In this document: piece by piece, positions 13,175 through 19,146 of the stretch
Numbering within the stretch: the stretch's first letter is position 1
How the letters are laid out: each line of letters opens with the position of its first letter
Assembly (NCBI GenBank): GCA_007136585.1
Contig: SLGR01000037.1
Location: 1-19,216 of the forward strand
Reading direction: 5' to 3'
From: Candidatus Sumerlaeota bacterium
GTDB taxonomy: Bacteria; CG03; SLGR01
DNA length: 19,216 bases
Translations under genes and position numbers: made by a program
The notes under the pieces: generated by a model
The model's input: only the letters and a program-made list of their open reading frames with translations
What the model was told of the DNA's origin: nothing
The model's database searches: none

Positions 13175-13666
13175 TTGAAAGAGTTCCGCTACTGTCCGTT
13201 ATGCGCCGCCGGGCTTGTAAGTTCTGAGATAGAGGGCAGGCTCCGGAGTCTATGCCCGGGGTGCGGATGGGTTAACTACAAGAACCCGCTTCCTGCCTCG
13301 GCCTGTATTGTAAGAGACGGGGATAAGGTCCTTCTGGTCAGGAGAGCCGTTGATCCGTTTGCTGGCAGATGGTCGCTTCCCGGCGGGTTTATTGAAGCGG
13401 AAGAGACGCCGGAGGACGGAGCCCTCCGCGAGCTCTATGAAGAGACCGGCATAAGAGGAAAAATTGAGAGGCTGCTTGGGGTTTATTCCCAGGAGACCGG
13501 GGTTTACGGAAACGTGCTGGTTATCGGGTTTCTTGCAGTAATGACCGGAGGGCGCTTAAAGGCCGGCAGCGATGTTTCCGAGGCCTGTTTCGGGATTCCG
13601 GAAGAGGCGGACATACCTTTTGAGAGCCAGCGCAGGATGCTGGGTGGGATAAAAGGACGTCTCTGA
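13175..13666 (+). CDS. Nudix hydrolase with N-terminal zinc ribbon
   Basis: 163-aa pyrophosphohydrolase. An N-terminal zinc ribbon uses Cys7, Cys10, Cys27 and Cys30 (CPLC and CPGC), as in NudC-like and ADP-ribose/NADH-type Nudix proteins. The Nudix box GX5EX7REUXEEXGU is complete at residues 71-93: GFIEAEETPEDG followed by ALRELYEETGI. Substrate is a nucleoside diphosphate linked to some group X, but which one is not determined. The start is TTG at 13175 with GAGGTG upstream; no ATG lies before the zinc ribbon. Its stop overlaps the next ATG by one base (TGATG), so it is probably translationally coupled to the radical SAM gene. Confidence 0.88.
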   Translation: MKEFRYCPLCAAGLVSSEIEGRLRSLCPGCGWVNYKNPLPASACIVRDGDKVLLVRRAVDPFAGRWSLPGGFIEAEETPEDGALRELYEETGIRGKIERLLGVYSQETGVYGNVLVIGFLAVMTGGRLKAGSDVSEACFGIPEEADIPFESQRRMLGGIKGRL

Positions 13667-14592
13667 TGTATATCTTCGGGCCGGTTCCCTCGCGCAGGCT
13701 GGGCCTTTCCCTGGGGGTGGATCTTGTTCCCTCAAAGGTTTGCCCGATGGACTGTGTTTACTGCGAGTGCGGCAGGACCACTCTCAGAACCAGCGTCCGT
13801 AAACCCTGGGCCGATCCGGCTTTGGTTATTGCAGAACTCAAGGAACGTCTTGAGGTTCTGCCCGAACCTGAGTGCGTGACCTTCTCCGGGGCCGGGGAAC
13901 CCACTCTCAACAGCGGGATAGGCGAAGTAATAGGTTTTCTTAAATCCCGTAGCCCTGACTCCCCTGTTGCGCTTCTTACAAACGGGGCGCTCCTGGAAGA
14001 TGAGAAAGTGAGAAAGGATATATCCGGGGTTGATATCGTTATACCGACCCTATCTGCTGTTTCACAGGAGGTATTTGAAAGGATATCCCGTCCTGAACCC
14101 GGTCTCACAGCATCCGGAATCGTTGAAGGGATACGTAAACTCTCACGAGAGTCTTCTTCCAGGTTGTGGGTGGAGGTTTTCATAGTCCCTGGTATAAATG
14201 ACGACCCCCGTGAGGTTGCTCTCATCAGGGAGACCCTGCTTCAGATAGAACCGGATAAGGTTCATCTTAATACGCTTGACAGGCCCGCCTCCGAACCCTG
14301 GGTCCGGCCGGCTCCTACAGAGAGGATGGAAGAACTCAGAAGGTATATGCGTCCCCTGGATACGGAGATAATACTTCCCCCGAAGAGTATGGGCGCGGGG
14401 AAGCTCCGGGGATCAGAAATGGAGTCGGGAATCCTTGAACTTATCTCCCGGCGCCCCTGCACCCCGGAGGATATCTCGCAGGTTTTTGGGGTCTCCGAAA
14501 AAGAGGCTGAAACTTATTTGCAAGAACTTCTTAATTCTGGTAGAATATTCGTTGAAAAAAGGGAAAGAGGAGATTTTTACAAAATAAAATGA
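13666..14592 (+). CDS. radical SAM protein (COG0731-like) with C-terminal winged helix
   Basis: 308-aa radical S-adenosylmethionine protein. The N-terminus FGPVPSRRLGLSLGVD with the cluster motif C-x3-C-x2-C (Cys26, Cys30, Cys33) places it in the COG0731 group, distant relatives of the wyosine enzyme TYW1 whose function is not established. The SAM-contact GAGEPT motif is at 75-80. The last 57 or so residues (about 252-308) have the pattern of a winged helix: GILELISRRPCTPEDISQ, VSEKEAETYLQELLNSG and a RIFVEKRERGDFYKI wing. The catalytic substrate is unknown. It overlaps the Nudix stop by 1 base and the BMC gene start by 4 bases (ATGA). Confidence 0.85.
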   Translation: MYIFGPVPSRRLGLSLGVDLVPSKVCPMDCVYCECGRTTLRTSVRKPWADPALVIAELKERLEVLPEPECVTFSGAGEPTLNSGIGEVIGFLKSRSPDSPVALLTNGALLEDEKVRKDISGVDIVIPTLSAVSQEVFERISRPEPGLTASGIVEGIRKLSRESSSRLWVEVFIVPGINDDPREVALIRETLLQIEPDKVHLNTLDRPASEPWVRPAPTERMEELRRYMRPLDTEIILPPKSMGAGKLRGSEMESGILELISRRPCTPEDISQVFGVSEKEAETYLQELLNSGRIFVEKRERGDFYKIK

Positions 14593-15503
14593 ACCAGCAA
14601 AAAAAATCAGCATCAACCAGCAGGAAAAAGACCGGTGAGGCCCTTGCTTTCATAGAAACAAGGGGCAAGACCGGAATAATCGGCGCTCTTGATATAATGC
14701 CGAAGACCTCCGAGGTTTCGTTTTTTGACAGGGTTAATATAGGCAGCGGTATGGTTACCGTTGTTTATACGGGAGAGGTCGCCGCTTCAAGGGCAGCCCA
14801 CGATGCCGCGGCATCCCTGGCAGGAAAGCTGGGAGAGTTTGTGGCCGGCAACGTTATCCCGCGCCCCCATGAGCGTATATACAGCCTTATACAGCAGCGC
14901 CCGGGGGAGGTCTCTTCCGAGGGGTTATCCGGGCGCAGCCTTGCGCTGGGCATAGTAGAGACATACGGTTTTCCAGGTATGATTGAGGCCGCCGACAGGG
15001 GGATAAAGGCGGCTGATGTTATTATTCCCGGATGGGTAACCGTGGGGAGCGGGCTTGCCTCAGTCTTCTTCAGGGGCGACGTGGCTGCGGTTCATTCTGC
15101 CGTTGAGGCCGCTGCCGTCGGAGCGGAGAGGGTTTCCAGGGTGGAAGGGCTTCATGTGATTCCCCAGCCTCACCGGGGGACCGAAGAGGCGGTTCCGGTG
15201 GGACACGGCGGCGAAGCGCCGCCGGACCGTAAAGTTTCTCACGATGATGCCCTTGGCATACTTGAGACCCGGGGAATAACACCCCTTGTAGAGGGGATAG
15301 ATTCGGGGCTTAAAGCGGCGGGTACCGTCGTGCAGGGTTGGGAAAAGATAGGAAGGGGTATGGCCTCAACTCTTTTCCGGGGTCCTGTTTCCGACGTAAA
15401 AGCCTCAATGGAGGCAGCTTCCGCGTCTGCTTCAAAAATCGGAAAGATTACCGGCAGTTATATAATAGCCAGGCCGCACCCCGAATTAGACAAGGGAAGG
15501 TGA
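14589..15503 (+). CDS. triple-domain bacterial microcompartment (BMC) shell protein
   Basis: 304-aa protein made of three consecutive BMC (Pfam BMC-type) domains at about residues 17-94, 117-195 and 219-297, joined by linkers of about 22 residues, after a basic 16-residue N-terminus. Each repeat has the family landmarks: an opening strand (LAFIETRG, LGIVETYG, LGILETRG), a pore loop (NIGSGM, TVGSGL, KIGRGM), a YTGEVAA / FRGDVAA / FRGPVSD helix start and a closing motif (VIPRPH, VIPQPH, IIARPH). Lysines matching PduA Lys26 (39, 140, 242) and arginines matching PduA Arg79 (92 and 295; Gln193 in the middle repeat) are mostly kept, so shell-edge contacts are plausible. Known shell proteins have one (BMC-H) or two (BMC-T) domains. 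Two chains of three would give six domains, the number in one hexagonal tile. No other BMC gene or encapsulated enzyme is in the window. ATG overlaps the upstream stop and the stop overlaps the yggS GTG. Confidence 0.93.
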   Translation: MNQQKKSASTSRKKTGEALAFIETRGKTGIIGALDIMPKTSEVSFFDRVNIGSGMVTVVYTGEVAASRAAHDAAASLAGKLGEFVAGNVIPRPHERIYSLIQQRPGEVSSEGLSGRSLALGIVETYGFPGMIEAADRGIKAADVIIPGWVTVGSGLASVFFRGDVAAVHSAVEAAAVGAERVSRVEGLHVIPQPHRGTEEAVPVGHGGEAPPDRKVSHDDALGILETRGITPLVEGIDSGLKAAGTVVQGWEKIGRGMASTLFRGPVSDVKASMEAASASASKIGKITGSYIIARPHPELDKGR

Positions 15504-16168
15504 ACCGGGTTCAGGTAGGGGAGAACGTCAGAAGGATTCTCGCTGAACTTCCCCGGGGGGTAAGACTTGAGGCTGCGTGCAAGACTCGCTCCCCCTCCGA
15601 GGTCCAGCAGGCCGTTGATGCCGGGGTAGAGATACTCGGGGAGAACTATGTCCGTGAAGCCGCCGGAAAGTTCCACCTTATAAAGGGAAGTTTCCGGCGG
15701 CATTTTATAGGGCACCTTCAGCGGAACAAGGTTAAGAAAGCCCTGGGGCTCTTTGACCTGATAGAGTCTCTTGACTCTATCTCCCTGGCCGAAGAGATCA
15801 GTAAAAGAAGCGCCTCTCTTTCCATTACCGCCGAATGTCTTATAGAGGTAAACAGCGCCCGGGAGAAGAATAAGTCCGGTATTTATCCCGAAGAGACCCT
15901 GGATTTTGCGCGTAAGGTCTCCGGGTTCGGAAATATACTGGTGAGGGGGCTGATGACAATGGGTCCCCTTACGGAGGATCCGGAAGAGCTCCGCCCTTAT
16001 TTCAGACAGACCCGTGAATTGTTCGAAAAACTGAAACAGATGAGAATCCGGGGATGCCGCATGGAGATACTCTCAATGGGGATGTCATCCTCATACAGAA
16101 CAGCGGTAAGCGAGGGGGCAAACCTTGTCCGTGTCGGGACGGCTATTTTCGGTCCCCGTGAAAACTGA
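15500..16168 (+). CDS. yggS: YggS/PROSC family pyridoxal phosphate homeostasis protein
   Basis: 222-aa PLP-binding protein with an alanine-racemase-like TIM barrel, required for vitamin B6 homeostasis. The PLP lysine is Lys28 in AACKTRS. GENYVREA, HFIGHLQRNK and the phosphate-binding C-terminal block LSMGMSSSY ... VRVGTAIFG are present. The frame is open upstream to 15338, inside the BMC gene. The GTG at 15500 is chosen because the family's usual length (220-230 aa) begins there and because GTGA overlaps the BMC stop, with AGGGA just before. One departure from the usual sequence is Ala-Ala-Cys in place of Ala-Val-Ser before the lysine. Cotranslation with a shell-protein gene is unusual; yggS is usually found beside cell-division genes or proC. 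Confidence 0.92.
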   Translation: MNRVQVGENVRRILAELPRGVRLEAACKTRSPSEVQQAVDAGVEILGENYVREAAGKFHLIKGSFRRHFIGHLQRNKVKKALGLFDLIESLDSISLAEEISKRSASLSITAECLIEVNSAREKNKSGIYPEETLDFARKVSGFGNILVRGLMTMGPLTEDPEELRPYFRQTRELFEKLKQMRIRGCRMEILSMGMSSSYRTAVSEGANLVRVGTAIFGPREN

Positions 16169-16569: not shown

Positions 16570-16956
16570 TTGAATCTTTTCCTGAAACTCTATATAGGGA
16601 AAGACGGCGAAGAACCTTTTCTGGGCCGGGGTCCTGTCGAGCTTCTTGAGAATATCCTGAAAACCGGTTCCATCCGGGCTGCCGCTTCCGGTATGCGGAT
16701 GTCCTACTCCAAGGCCCACAGGATAATAAGGCGCCTGGAAAAAGGATTAGGGCTCAGGGTCCTGCGCCCTGAGACCGGGGGCGCAGGGGGCGGCGGGAGC
16801 GTCCTTACAGAGGAGGGGCGGCGTCTTATCCGGGATTACCGGAAACTTGAAAAAGAGGTGACGGAGTTTGCTTCCGGGCGGTTTTCCGAAACGGTTGCTT
16901 TTTACGGAAAGAGCCGGTCTCAGAGAAATTCTCCACAGAACCCCCGGGGATTTTAA
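16570..16956 (+). CDS. ModE N-terminal-type winged-helix regulator
   Basis: 128-aa DNA-binding protein resembling the N-terminal LysR-like winged helix of ModE. The core LLENILKTGSIRAAASGMRM (25-44), then SYSKAHRIIRRLEKGLG and a wing ending LTEEGRRLI (79-87), is the classic form, including the Gly-Ser-Ile-Arg-Ala-Ala-Ala helix-turn-helix start. There is no molybdate-binding (Mop/TOBE) domain, so metal sensing is not indicated. Such stand-alone domains are common as regulators of adjacent transport genes. The start is TTG at 16570 with GGGGAGA upstream; the in-line ATG at 16562 is out of frame. Two membrane protein genes follow at once, so they are the natural candidate targets. Confidence 0.8.
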   Translation: MNLFLKLYIGKDGEEPFLGRGPVELLENILKTGSIRAAASGMRMSYSKAHRIIRRLEKGLGLRVLRPETGGAGGGGSVLTEEGRRLIRDYRKLEKEVTEFASGRFSETVAFYGKSRSQRNSPQNPRGF

Positions 16957-16957
16957 T

Positions 16958-18052
16958 TTGAAAGGTCTTAAAGGTATTCTCAGTCTGCCGCTTCTTGCAG
17001 CGGCGATGGTTCTTTCCGCCCGCTTCCCTGCCGGCGGCGCTTCCAATTCCCGCGAATACGCTCGCGCCCGGGTCCTGGAGGTGGTTTCCGAGACAAGGGC
17101 AGATGACGTATGGCAGCAGTCTCTTCTCGTAAAGGTGCTTAGAGGTTCATACAGAGGAACTGTCATCAGGGCCGGAAACAGAACCTGGGGAGGAGCATAC
17201 GGGTTCAGGGCCGCTGCCGGCGATACCCTTATAGTAAGCATAGACACCCGCTCCGCTATCCCTTCTGCCCAGGTCGCCGCAAGGCACCGGTCGCCTTATG
17301 CGCTGCTTGCCCTTGGTCTTTTCATACTGGTTTTTATGCTGGTCTCGGGAGTTAAATCCGCCGGAGCCCTCTCCTGTGTCGGGATCAACGCGGGACTTGT
17401 GGTCTTTCTGCTCATACCCCTGCTGATACGGGGTTGGGCGCCGCTTCCCGCGGCGCTGGCGGTCTGTATCCTTGGTATCGCGTTTTCAGTAAGGGTTATC
17501 TTAGGCGGAGGCCCCCGGTTCCTGGCATCTTCGGCCGGAGCCGCGTGCGGGGTTCTCTTTGCCGCCGCGCTTACGGTGTTTTTTTCCCGCGCGGCGAACC
17601 TTACGGGACTCTTTGCCGGCGGCAGTTCGCGTCTCTTAAGCGCTGCCGCCAGACACCTGCCGGGTTGGGCGCTCTCCGATATGAACGGTCTCCTGGCTGC
17701 CGGGTTTATGGTGGCCGCCCTGGGGGCGGTTGTGGATGTCTCGGTTACCATTACCTCGGCCTGCTCAAGTTTTTCCTCAGAAGGGGCCGGAAGAAACCGG
17801 CTCTGGAGATCCGGCCTCCAGGTAGGCAGGGATATAACAGCTACAATGCTTAACAGTCTGATCCTTGTTTTTCTGAGTCTCTCCTTTCCGGTTATAGGGC
17901 TTTTTTCGGTTATGGATATCCCGTTTGTTATGGCGTTTAATTTTGAGTTCTTTGTAGTGATGGCTGCCGGCGCGCTTATAACCAGCAGCGCGATGGTTGC
18001 CGCCGTGCCGGCTTCGGCTTTCATCTCAAGCAGACTCTTGGCCGGAAAATGA
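16958..18052 (+). CDS. YibE/F-like membrane protein (first of pair)
   Basis: Predicted 364-aa inner-membrane protein of the YibE/F family (function unknown). A signal/anchor segment (about 7-27) is followed by an extracytoplasmic beta-rich domain (about 33-105) and then seven or so membrane segments. The family's conserved part is at the end: GAVVDVSVTITSA (256-268), LQVGRDITATMLNS (287-300) and LILVFLSLSFPV. The frame is open to 16868, overlapping the regulator. I place the start at TTG 16958 because it lies one base after the regulator's stop, has GGGG upstream and begins the signal segment. Its stop overlaps the next gene by 4 bases (ATGA). Confidence 0.75.
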   Translation: MKGLKGILSLPLLAAAMVLSARFPAGGASNSREYARARVLEVVSETRADDVWQQSLLVKVLRGSYRGTVIRAGNRTWGGAYGFRAAAGDTLIVSIDTRSAIPSAQVAARHRSPYALLALGLFILVFMLVSGVKSAGALSCVGINAGLVVFLLIPLLIRGWAPLPAALAVCILGIAFSVRVILGGGPRFLASSAGAACGVLFAAALTVFFSRAANLTGLFAGGSSRLLSAAARHLPGWALSDMNGLLAAGFMVAALGAVVDVSVTITSACSSFSSEGAGRNRLWRSGLQVGRDITATMLNSLILVFLSLSFPVIGLFSVMDIPFVMAFNFEFFVVMAAGALITSSAMVAAVPASAFISSRLLAGK

Positions 18053-19146
18053 GGAATCTTCTCTTAGTCTCTCTTCTTCTTGCTTCGGCATCCGTTAACG
18101 CTTATCCCGGCGTCTGGGCAGAGAACCCCGAAGAGGATTTTCACGCCCATCCTCTTGTTGAGATATCCGGTTCCGGAAGAAACTTTGCCCGGGCAAGGGT
18201 GCGGAAACTACTGCGTGAGGCCTCAAGGAGAGAGAGCGGACTTCTCAGAGCAGAGATATCTTCGGGGCCCCGCGCCGGTGAGTATATATACGTATCTGTT
18301 TTCTATACCCCGCAGGTTGAACCTCTCAGGGAGAACGAAAATATAGTAATAAGTTTCCAGGACGGCGCCGGAGAAGATGCCGTTTTTGAGTCCAGGGACC
18401 GGCTTGGGAGCCTGGCCCTGCTGCTGATTATATTTATCATTCTTGTTGCTTCAGTGGGAGGAAAGAGAAGCCTTTACTCTATCGCGGCTCTTGGAGCAGG
18501 TATAGCGGTCTGCTGGGTGGTACTGGGAAGAATCTTTGAGTTCGGGAGAAACCCTCTTTACGATATGGGCCTTGCTGTATCTTTCGTGGTTATGATAACA
18601 ACTCTTGCGATAGGGGGGGTCTCTTCAAAGAGCTTCTCCGCCGCTATAGGGAGTTTTGCGGGGTTGGGGGTGGGCGCTTTCACGGGATGGGTGTTTTTTT
18701 ACGGGGCCGGGGTAACGGGGTTTCATTTTGAGGAGGTTCAGCTTCTTCATTATGCGACAGGGTACGGTTCAGGGTTTTTCATAGATTTCATGACCGGGCT
18801 TCTTCTGCTGGGCGCCGCCGGGGTTATCATGGATTCTGCGGTAAGCGTGGCTTCTTCTATGTATGAAATCAAGAAGAATAATCCGGGGATAACCCGGGTC
18901 GCTCTCAGGGACGAAGGGGTTTCCATAGGGCGCGATGTCACGCTTACAATGGCCAGCACCCTGGCTGTTGCCTACCTGGGGGGGGCTTTACCTTTGATGC
19001 TGGCCGGGAGTCTTCATCTCTCGTCTGTTACGCAGCTGGTAAACCTGCCTTCTTTTCATCTGGGGCTTTACAGCGTGCTGCTGGGAAGCACCGCCTTTGC
19101 CGTAAGCGCCCGCGTAACCGCCTGGGTCGGCGCAAAAATAATATAA
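18049..19146 (+). CDS. YibE/F-like membrane protein (second of pair)
   Basis: 365-aa paralogue of the preceding gene and nearly the same length. Residues 1-18 are a signal peptide (MRNLLLVSLLLASASVNA). The exported domain spans about 30-115 and contains GPRAGEYIYV, the counterpart of GSYRGTVIRA in the first protein. Membrane segments then run from about 121. The family motif is GVIMDSAVSVASSMYEI (258-274) followed by SIGRDVTLTMASTLAVAYLG (292-311). The shared GRD-x6-L/M core and MD/VD before it mark both as YibE/F. The role is unknown; a hetero-oligomeric membrane complex is a reasonable inference from tight coupling. Confidence 0.82.
   Translation: MRNLLLVSLLLASASVNAYPGVWAENPEEDFHAHPLVEISGSGRNFARARVRKLLREASRRESGLLRAEISSGPRAGEYIYVSVFYTPQVEPLRENENIVISFQDGAGEDAVFESRDRLGSLALLLIIFIILVASVGGKRSLYSIAALGAGIAVCWVVLGRIFEFGRNPLYDMGLAVSFVVMITTLAIGGVSSKSFSAAIGSFAGLGVGAFTGWVFFYGAGVTGFHFEEVQLLHYATGYGSGFFIDFMTGLLLLGAAGVIMDSAVSVASSMYEIKKNNPGITRVALRDEGVSIGRDVTLTMASTLAVAYLGGALPLMLAGSLHLSSVTQLVNLPSFHLGLYSVLLGSTAFAVSARVTAWVGAKII

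Follow-up and report, generated by a model that had tools for sequence, protein, structure and literature searches.

An open reading frame in the window, that is, the whole 19,216 nt stretch of DNA analysed here, encodes a single chain with three tandem BMC shell domains. This chain is kept in 12 genomes of three groups and probably represents a genuine kind of shell tile that had not been described. Its membership in the shell is very likely, and we consider it likely that the protein is a satellite-encoded facet tile, in which two identical chains would form a two-fold pseudohexamer.

Three BMC domains in one open reading frame

The gene and its parts are located as follows:

14589..15503, + strand: three-domain BMC shell protein (the triple), 304 aa, open ORF with ATG start
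14640..14867, + strand: BMC domain 1 (PF00936), with the D-x-x-PKT signature
14868..14942, + strand: linker 1-2, approx. 25 residues, a gap between domain matches that includes the predicted C-terminal helix of domain 1 (residues 95-102)
14943..15170, + strand: BMC domain 2 (PF00936), Q replacing the PRPH arginine
15171..15248, + strand: linker 2-3, approx. 26 residues, a gap between domain matches; pLDDT <50 at residues 203-213
15249..15476, + strand: BMC domain 3 (PF00936), arginine instead of serine at the pore position

PF00936 was matched three times in this ORF using Pfam hmmscan (whole protein E 3.8e-52), with approx. 58.4-58.6, 72.2-72.3 and 63.4-63.5 bits for domains 1, 2 and 3. Each third also exceeded the curated cut-off of 24.5 bits when scored alone (58-72 bits; E of 7e-16, 3e-20 and 2e-17). 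Three full BMC repeats in one chain had been proposed in an earlier note on this DNA, and the residue ranges given there (17-94, 117-195 and 219-297) lie near the PF00936 match positions.

By domain cut-off, fold and edge lysine, the triple belongs to the BMC shell protein superfamily (PF00936). Four narrower classes were considered and rejected. BMC-H proteins have one PF00936 domain and BMC-T proteins (Ts, Tsp, Tdp) exactly two, compared to three in the triple, and the domain tree described below also speaks against BMC-T. For CcmO, the NCBIfam model NF053792 yields 176 bits against a cut-off of 270, and both domain count and tree oppose this assignment. The single-domain EutM equivalog (NF012018) is reached by none of the thirds (59-69 bits each, cut-off 133). 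The whole chain, however, sums to 179 bits with the same model and passes the cut-off because the three domain scores add up; consequently, automatic annotation may hide the triple.

The current classification divides shell tiles into hexamers of one-domain chains and trimers of two-domain chains, permuted variants included. Phrase searches of the literature returned no three-domain BMC protein, although most subscription papers were outside their scope and an earlier mention is possible. Term searches of two large surveys, within the parts of these sources that were covered, found one- and two-domain types only (PMC8217296; PMC4207490). Among the PDB sequence matches listed, no chain had more than two matched stretches, and the closest was 6ner, an engineered two-domain BMC-H fusion. 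Within this scope, the earlier statement that no well-characterised three-domain member is known stands.

Orthologs and origin of the triple

Intact orthologs were detected in 11 further genomes. Five genomes of the same order carry full-length three-domain orthologs with 63-71% identity; five of the order's copies were found in the scan of named genomes, under records titled Elusimicrobia bacterium. A domain-wide search of 386 genomes revealed further full-length triples in G147, G284, G120, G256 and G383, and a phylum search added one more in G386. These six proteins outside the order are more divergent and belong to two other phylum-level groups, so that, including the window's own, 12 triples in three phylum-level groups are available. 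All copies share the D-x-x-PKT signature of domain 1. The closest pair, G120 and G256, differs by 18 synonymous and 1 non-synonymous changes, i.e., the gene is under strong purifying selection.

A tree of 96 BMC domains (88 columns) recovered domain 1, domain 2 and domain 3 as one clade each (support 100/97, 97/87 and 97/88), from which a single origin of the triple follows. The clades of domains 2 and 3 are sisters (99/90), while deeper joins are uncertain due to some long branches and the limited number of columns. Probably, the triple was formed when a C-terminal domain copy was added to a two-domain chain. BMC-T and CcmO-like domains fall elsewhere in the tree; the triple domains do not group even with BMC-T domains of the same genomes. 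CcmO of the beta-carboxysome resembles the triple in being a tandem of BMC-H-like domains, but it has only two of them, and in G206 and G062 the CcmO-like domains group in clades of their own.

No match to the triple was found in G387-G389, which belong to the phylum of G120, and phylum-wide searches around G068 and G339 yielded no triples. Weaker matches of the genome search (G062, G068, G124, G206, G296, G339) were rejected, as their ORFs are two-domain CcmO-like or adjacent single-domain genes. All matches in 72,556 plasmid records stayed below 60% identity; the top ones were either pduA/eutM-type genes with one domain or short stretches lacking annotation. The absence of the triple from G004 is uninformative, since this assembly also lacks the adjacent radical SAM gene. 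Genomes of the sister class have BMC-H and BMC-T genes without a triple. The triple is therefore dispensable for shells of this general kind, which counts against a facet tile.

Predicted arrangement of the domains

Single chains were modelled with AF2, with only 6-8 related sequences as input. The full-chain model reached a pLDDT of 79.5 and a pTM of 0.77. Of the five models of the full chain, two were of low quality (pLDDT 50 and 46), and this, like the small number of input sequences, counts against the tile. In the full-chain model, residues 9-203 (domains 1-2) match the whole BMC-T chain 5dii/5dih (Z 21, 2.6 Å, 187 residues). The same chains are matched when domains 2-3 are modelled on their own (pTM 0.80; Z 22, 2.4 Å, 185 residues). 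Domains 2 and 3 superpose on PduA at 0.6-0.7 Å (AF2 models against PDB), with 0.7 Å over 84 residues for domain 3 of the full chain. As a further point against the tile, the whole chain of 6ner superposes poorly on the triple model (Foldseek rmsd ~17 Å).

The monomer prediction that the earlier note had called for and the model of domains 2-3 thus place the neighbouring pairs 1-2 and 2-3 side by side as in BMC-T (2.4-2.6 Å), and one chain would correspond to half a disc. As for the assembly, a homodimer that closes into a two-fold pseudohexamer is most likely, and the modelled 1-2/2-3 geometry is consistent with it. BMC-Ts proteins (HO-5812, 5DIH/6N06; PduT, 3PAC) likewise consist of several fused PF00936 domains in a pseudohexameric disc, where the triple domains are predicted to lie side by side too. 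However, BMC-Ts proteins have two domains and three chains per disc, whereas three domains and two chains are expected for the triple. That BMC-H domains tolerate fusion in one chain is also known from 6NER and the six-fold concatenated PduA (A6), but these were engineered from copies of one domain rather than from three domains. The polypeptide with six PduA copies served as a non-tessellating control (PMC11157265).

Edge and pore residues

Four residues were of particular relevance:

14703..14705, + strand: Lys39, PduA K26 equivalent of domain 1, invariant in 12 proteins
15006..15008, + strand: Lys140, PduA K26 equivalent of domain 2, invariant in 12 proteins
15312..15314, + strand: Lys242, PduA K26 equivalent of domain 3, invariant in 12 proteins
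15354..15356, + strand: Arg256 at the pore-loop position (GRG) of domain 3, which is R or K in each of the order's six members

In PduA, K26 is needed for tessellation, and the K26D mutant does not tessellate (PMC11157265). The equivalent lysine is present in 36 of the 36 domain copies of the 12 triples, which supports the earlier reading that the protein fits into a shell lattice and has not been repurposed. The arginine of the PRPH motif is less uniform. In this order, domains 1 and 3 retain it, while domain 2 here reads PQPH; across all lineages, this position of domain 2 is Q, S or N, and in most of the G120 group the arginine is gone from domains 1-3. Of the conserved edge lysines and arginines claimed before, the lysine is therefore confirmed for every domain, but the arginine for all except domain 2. 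The equivalents of Arg256 in domains 1 and 2 are Ser53 and Ser154. At the pore position, members of the order have S or T in domain 1, S or G in domain 2 and R or K in domain 3; domain 3 has S in the lineages outside the order. Compared to BMC-H proteins (PduA, EutM, CcmK), the triple domains have the same standard unpermuted fold and the K26-equivalent lysine, but they occur as three diverged copies per chain which differ in their pore and edge residues.

A shell protein which does not pair with itself might also be imagined. Its chains would either form mixed discs with three BMC-H monomers or remain open half-discs which end or bend a facet, acting as an edge or curvature element. Such a protein would agree with the fact that each chain encodes only half a ring, and BMC-H genes are kept in nearly every triple-bearing genome searched. 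The pore and edge chemistry of domains 2 and 3 is unlike that of BMC-H, which we likewise count in its favour. Against it, each of the three domains retains the lattice lysine. Further, BMC-T, the two-domain analogue, closes with itself, and the neighbouring domains of the triple are predicted to have the geometry of homotrimeric BMC-T. We therefore regard a partner other than the triple itself, or none, as unlikely and retain the homodimeric facet tile as the preferred reading.

Genomic context

The triple is embedded in a conserved host operon with the order NUDIX, radical SAM, triple, YggS, in which it overlaps each of its two neighbours by four bases:

13175..13666, + strand: NUDIX hydrolase, which opens the conserved host operon and is not a shell part; same order in L029, L037 and L105
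13666..14592, + strand: radical SAM protein, immediate upstream neighbour, overlapping the triple by ATGA (14589-14592)
15500..16168, + strand: YggS/PROSC-like PLP protein (PF01168), immediate downstream neighbour, its GTG start overlapping the triple stop (GTGA, 15500-15503)

Downstream of YggS, a small GYD-domain protein (PF08734; 16222-16500) is encoded, which was not seen in the operons of relatives, and two tandem YibE/F-like membrane proteins (16868-19146) after the operon are kept nearby in relatives. In G120, G256, G383 and G386, the triple resides in another housekeeping operon (gmk, coaBC); at the loci L058, L059, L060 and L075 of this group, guanylate kinase and then coaBC follow directly 3′ of the triple.

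G001, a genome of the same family (97% complete), provides an empty site. NUDIX, radical SAM and YggS adjoin with the same short overlaps, but without the triple, and neither a PF00936 nor a PF03319 match was found in this genome. As triple and shell genes are absent together while the host operon is intact, the triple appears to go with the shell rather than with the operon, based on this one comparison.

No BMC-P or any other BMC gene lies beside the triple in the window. Besides the triple, the shell genes of this genome comprise one BMC-H gene on contig C157, one PduT-like BMC-T gene on C8 and three BMC-P genes, which are distributed over C8 and C55. A satellite locus, according to the covered part of PMC4207490, contains one or more shell genes without a full shell set, away from the main locus of the same genome; with the main-locus genes on C8, C55 and C157, the window holds such a locus. 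Nowhere does the triple gene adjoin a main shell locus, so that the two may not be co-expressed, which counts against a facet tile. PF03319 pentamers occur in the triple-bearing genomes checked, and nearly all of these have BMC-H and PduT-like BMC-T genes. G147, G120, G256 and G383 each contain BMC-H, BMC-T and three BMC-P genes; in G284 (590 contigs), BMC-H was not found and only two BMC-P genes were detected.

The position in housekeeping operons, be it NUDIX/radical SAM/YggS here or gmk/coaBC in the G120 group, could also indicate a protein outside the shell, e.g., a cytosolic scaffold, cargo adaptor or sensor derived from BMC domains, and the loss of the edge arginine described above would fit such a role. 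Nevertheless, we consider this improbable, even more so than a shell protein without self-pairing, since the triple is missing along with the whole shell in G001 and the lattice lysine has been retained in every domain. In addition, satellite shell genes are common and are thought to tune shell permeability, as stated in the covered part of PMC8217296. Finally, the assembly to which the window belongs is fragmented (257 contigs, completeness 88%), which would favour an artefact. However, the probability that the ORF results from an assembly error or from three BMC-H genes run together is negligible, since the same three-domain ORF in twelve genomes, its domain-specific clades and strong purifying selection rule out chance or mis-assembly, and 12 intact three-domain proteins refute three adjacent BMC-H genes.

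Type of the compartment

The BMC contigs of this genome encode DeoC (PF01791), RpiB (PF02502), an aldehyde dehydrogenase (PF00171), a PduL-type phosphotransacylase (PF06130) and an RnfC/PduS-type protein. According to the covered part of the 2021 catalogue, PF01791 and PF02502 are the two enzymes common to all SPU compartments (PMC8217296). Both are found on C8 together with BMC-P and BMC-T, and the compartment is accordingly of the SPU type, with an aldehyde dehydrogenase as a further likeness. The SPU components given in that part of the catalogue are BMC-H, -Ts, -Tsp, -Tdp and -P, without a three-domain protein, in contrast to the genome studied here.

Several other genes were observed in the compartment loci. 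A DnaA-type ATPase (PF00308, E 8e-66; L027:1280-3352 on C157) is located between BMC-H and a sensor kinase; it has proline-rich and zinc-ribbon-like stretches and occurs across the order (L030, L032, L039, L041, L042). Also near BMC-H, a cyclodeaminase-like protein (PF04961, FTCD_C; L027:681-1274) is encoded, which is found in the compartment loci of relatives, too. The DeoC aldolase (L028:2-1373 on C8) carries a fused flavoprotein-like domain at its N-terminus (PF02441 + PF01791 in a single chain), and relatives have similar ORFs. Triosephosphate isomerases of BMC loci (L076:2591-3487, L036:5252-6154, L032:14844-15740) carry approx. 50 extra N-terminal residues with a 'TPxARE' motif. Similar stretches were noticed by eye in a 94-aa protein of L027 and at the RpiB end in L071 and L073; the stretch is possibly an encapsulation module.

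Proposed tile

In the proposed facet tile, the chain would fold as three adjacent BMC domains in one arc, representing half a hexagonal tile. Two chains would pair in head-to-tail orientation, each domain 3 meeting domain 1 of the partner chain. The resulting closed six-domain disc would be of the usual size, but its symmetry would be two-fold rather than six- or three-fold. Such a disc could pack in a facet beside BMC-H hexamers and BMC-T trimers via the conserved edge lysine. Owing to the divergence of the three domains, the six edges of the disc and its pore ring would repeat in the order 1-2-3-1-2-3, with the edge arginine present at disc positions 1 and 3 and absent from position 2. In this order, the R or K of domain 3 would face that of the partner across the pore. 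The tile would serve a compartment with an SPU-type enzyme set (DeoC, RpiB, aldehyde dehydrogenase, PduL-type and RnfC/PduS-type proteins), and it is speculative that the positively charged pore matters for phosphorylated substrates.

Taken further, the triple might be an additional hexagonal building block in which the domain types divide the work, that is, a directional tile with two-fold pseudohexameric structure whose edges would differ in having or lacking the lattice arginine and whose paired-arginine pore, in this order, would suit phosphorylated sugars or acyl phosphates. This extended reading is tentative, and we hold it to be somewhat doubtful.

A three-domain chain makes use of the one divisor of six that was still left to evolution, and its tile would be two-fold. 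The triple is ancient enough or mobile enough to occur in three phylum-level groups. A two-fold tile could have unlike edges and unlike pore sides, which bears on the placement of tiles in a facet and on the selection of charged metabolites. For shell engineering, a three-domain chain would be a natural template.
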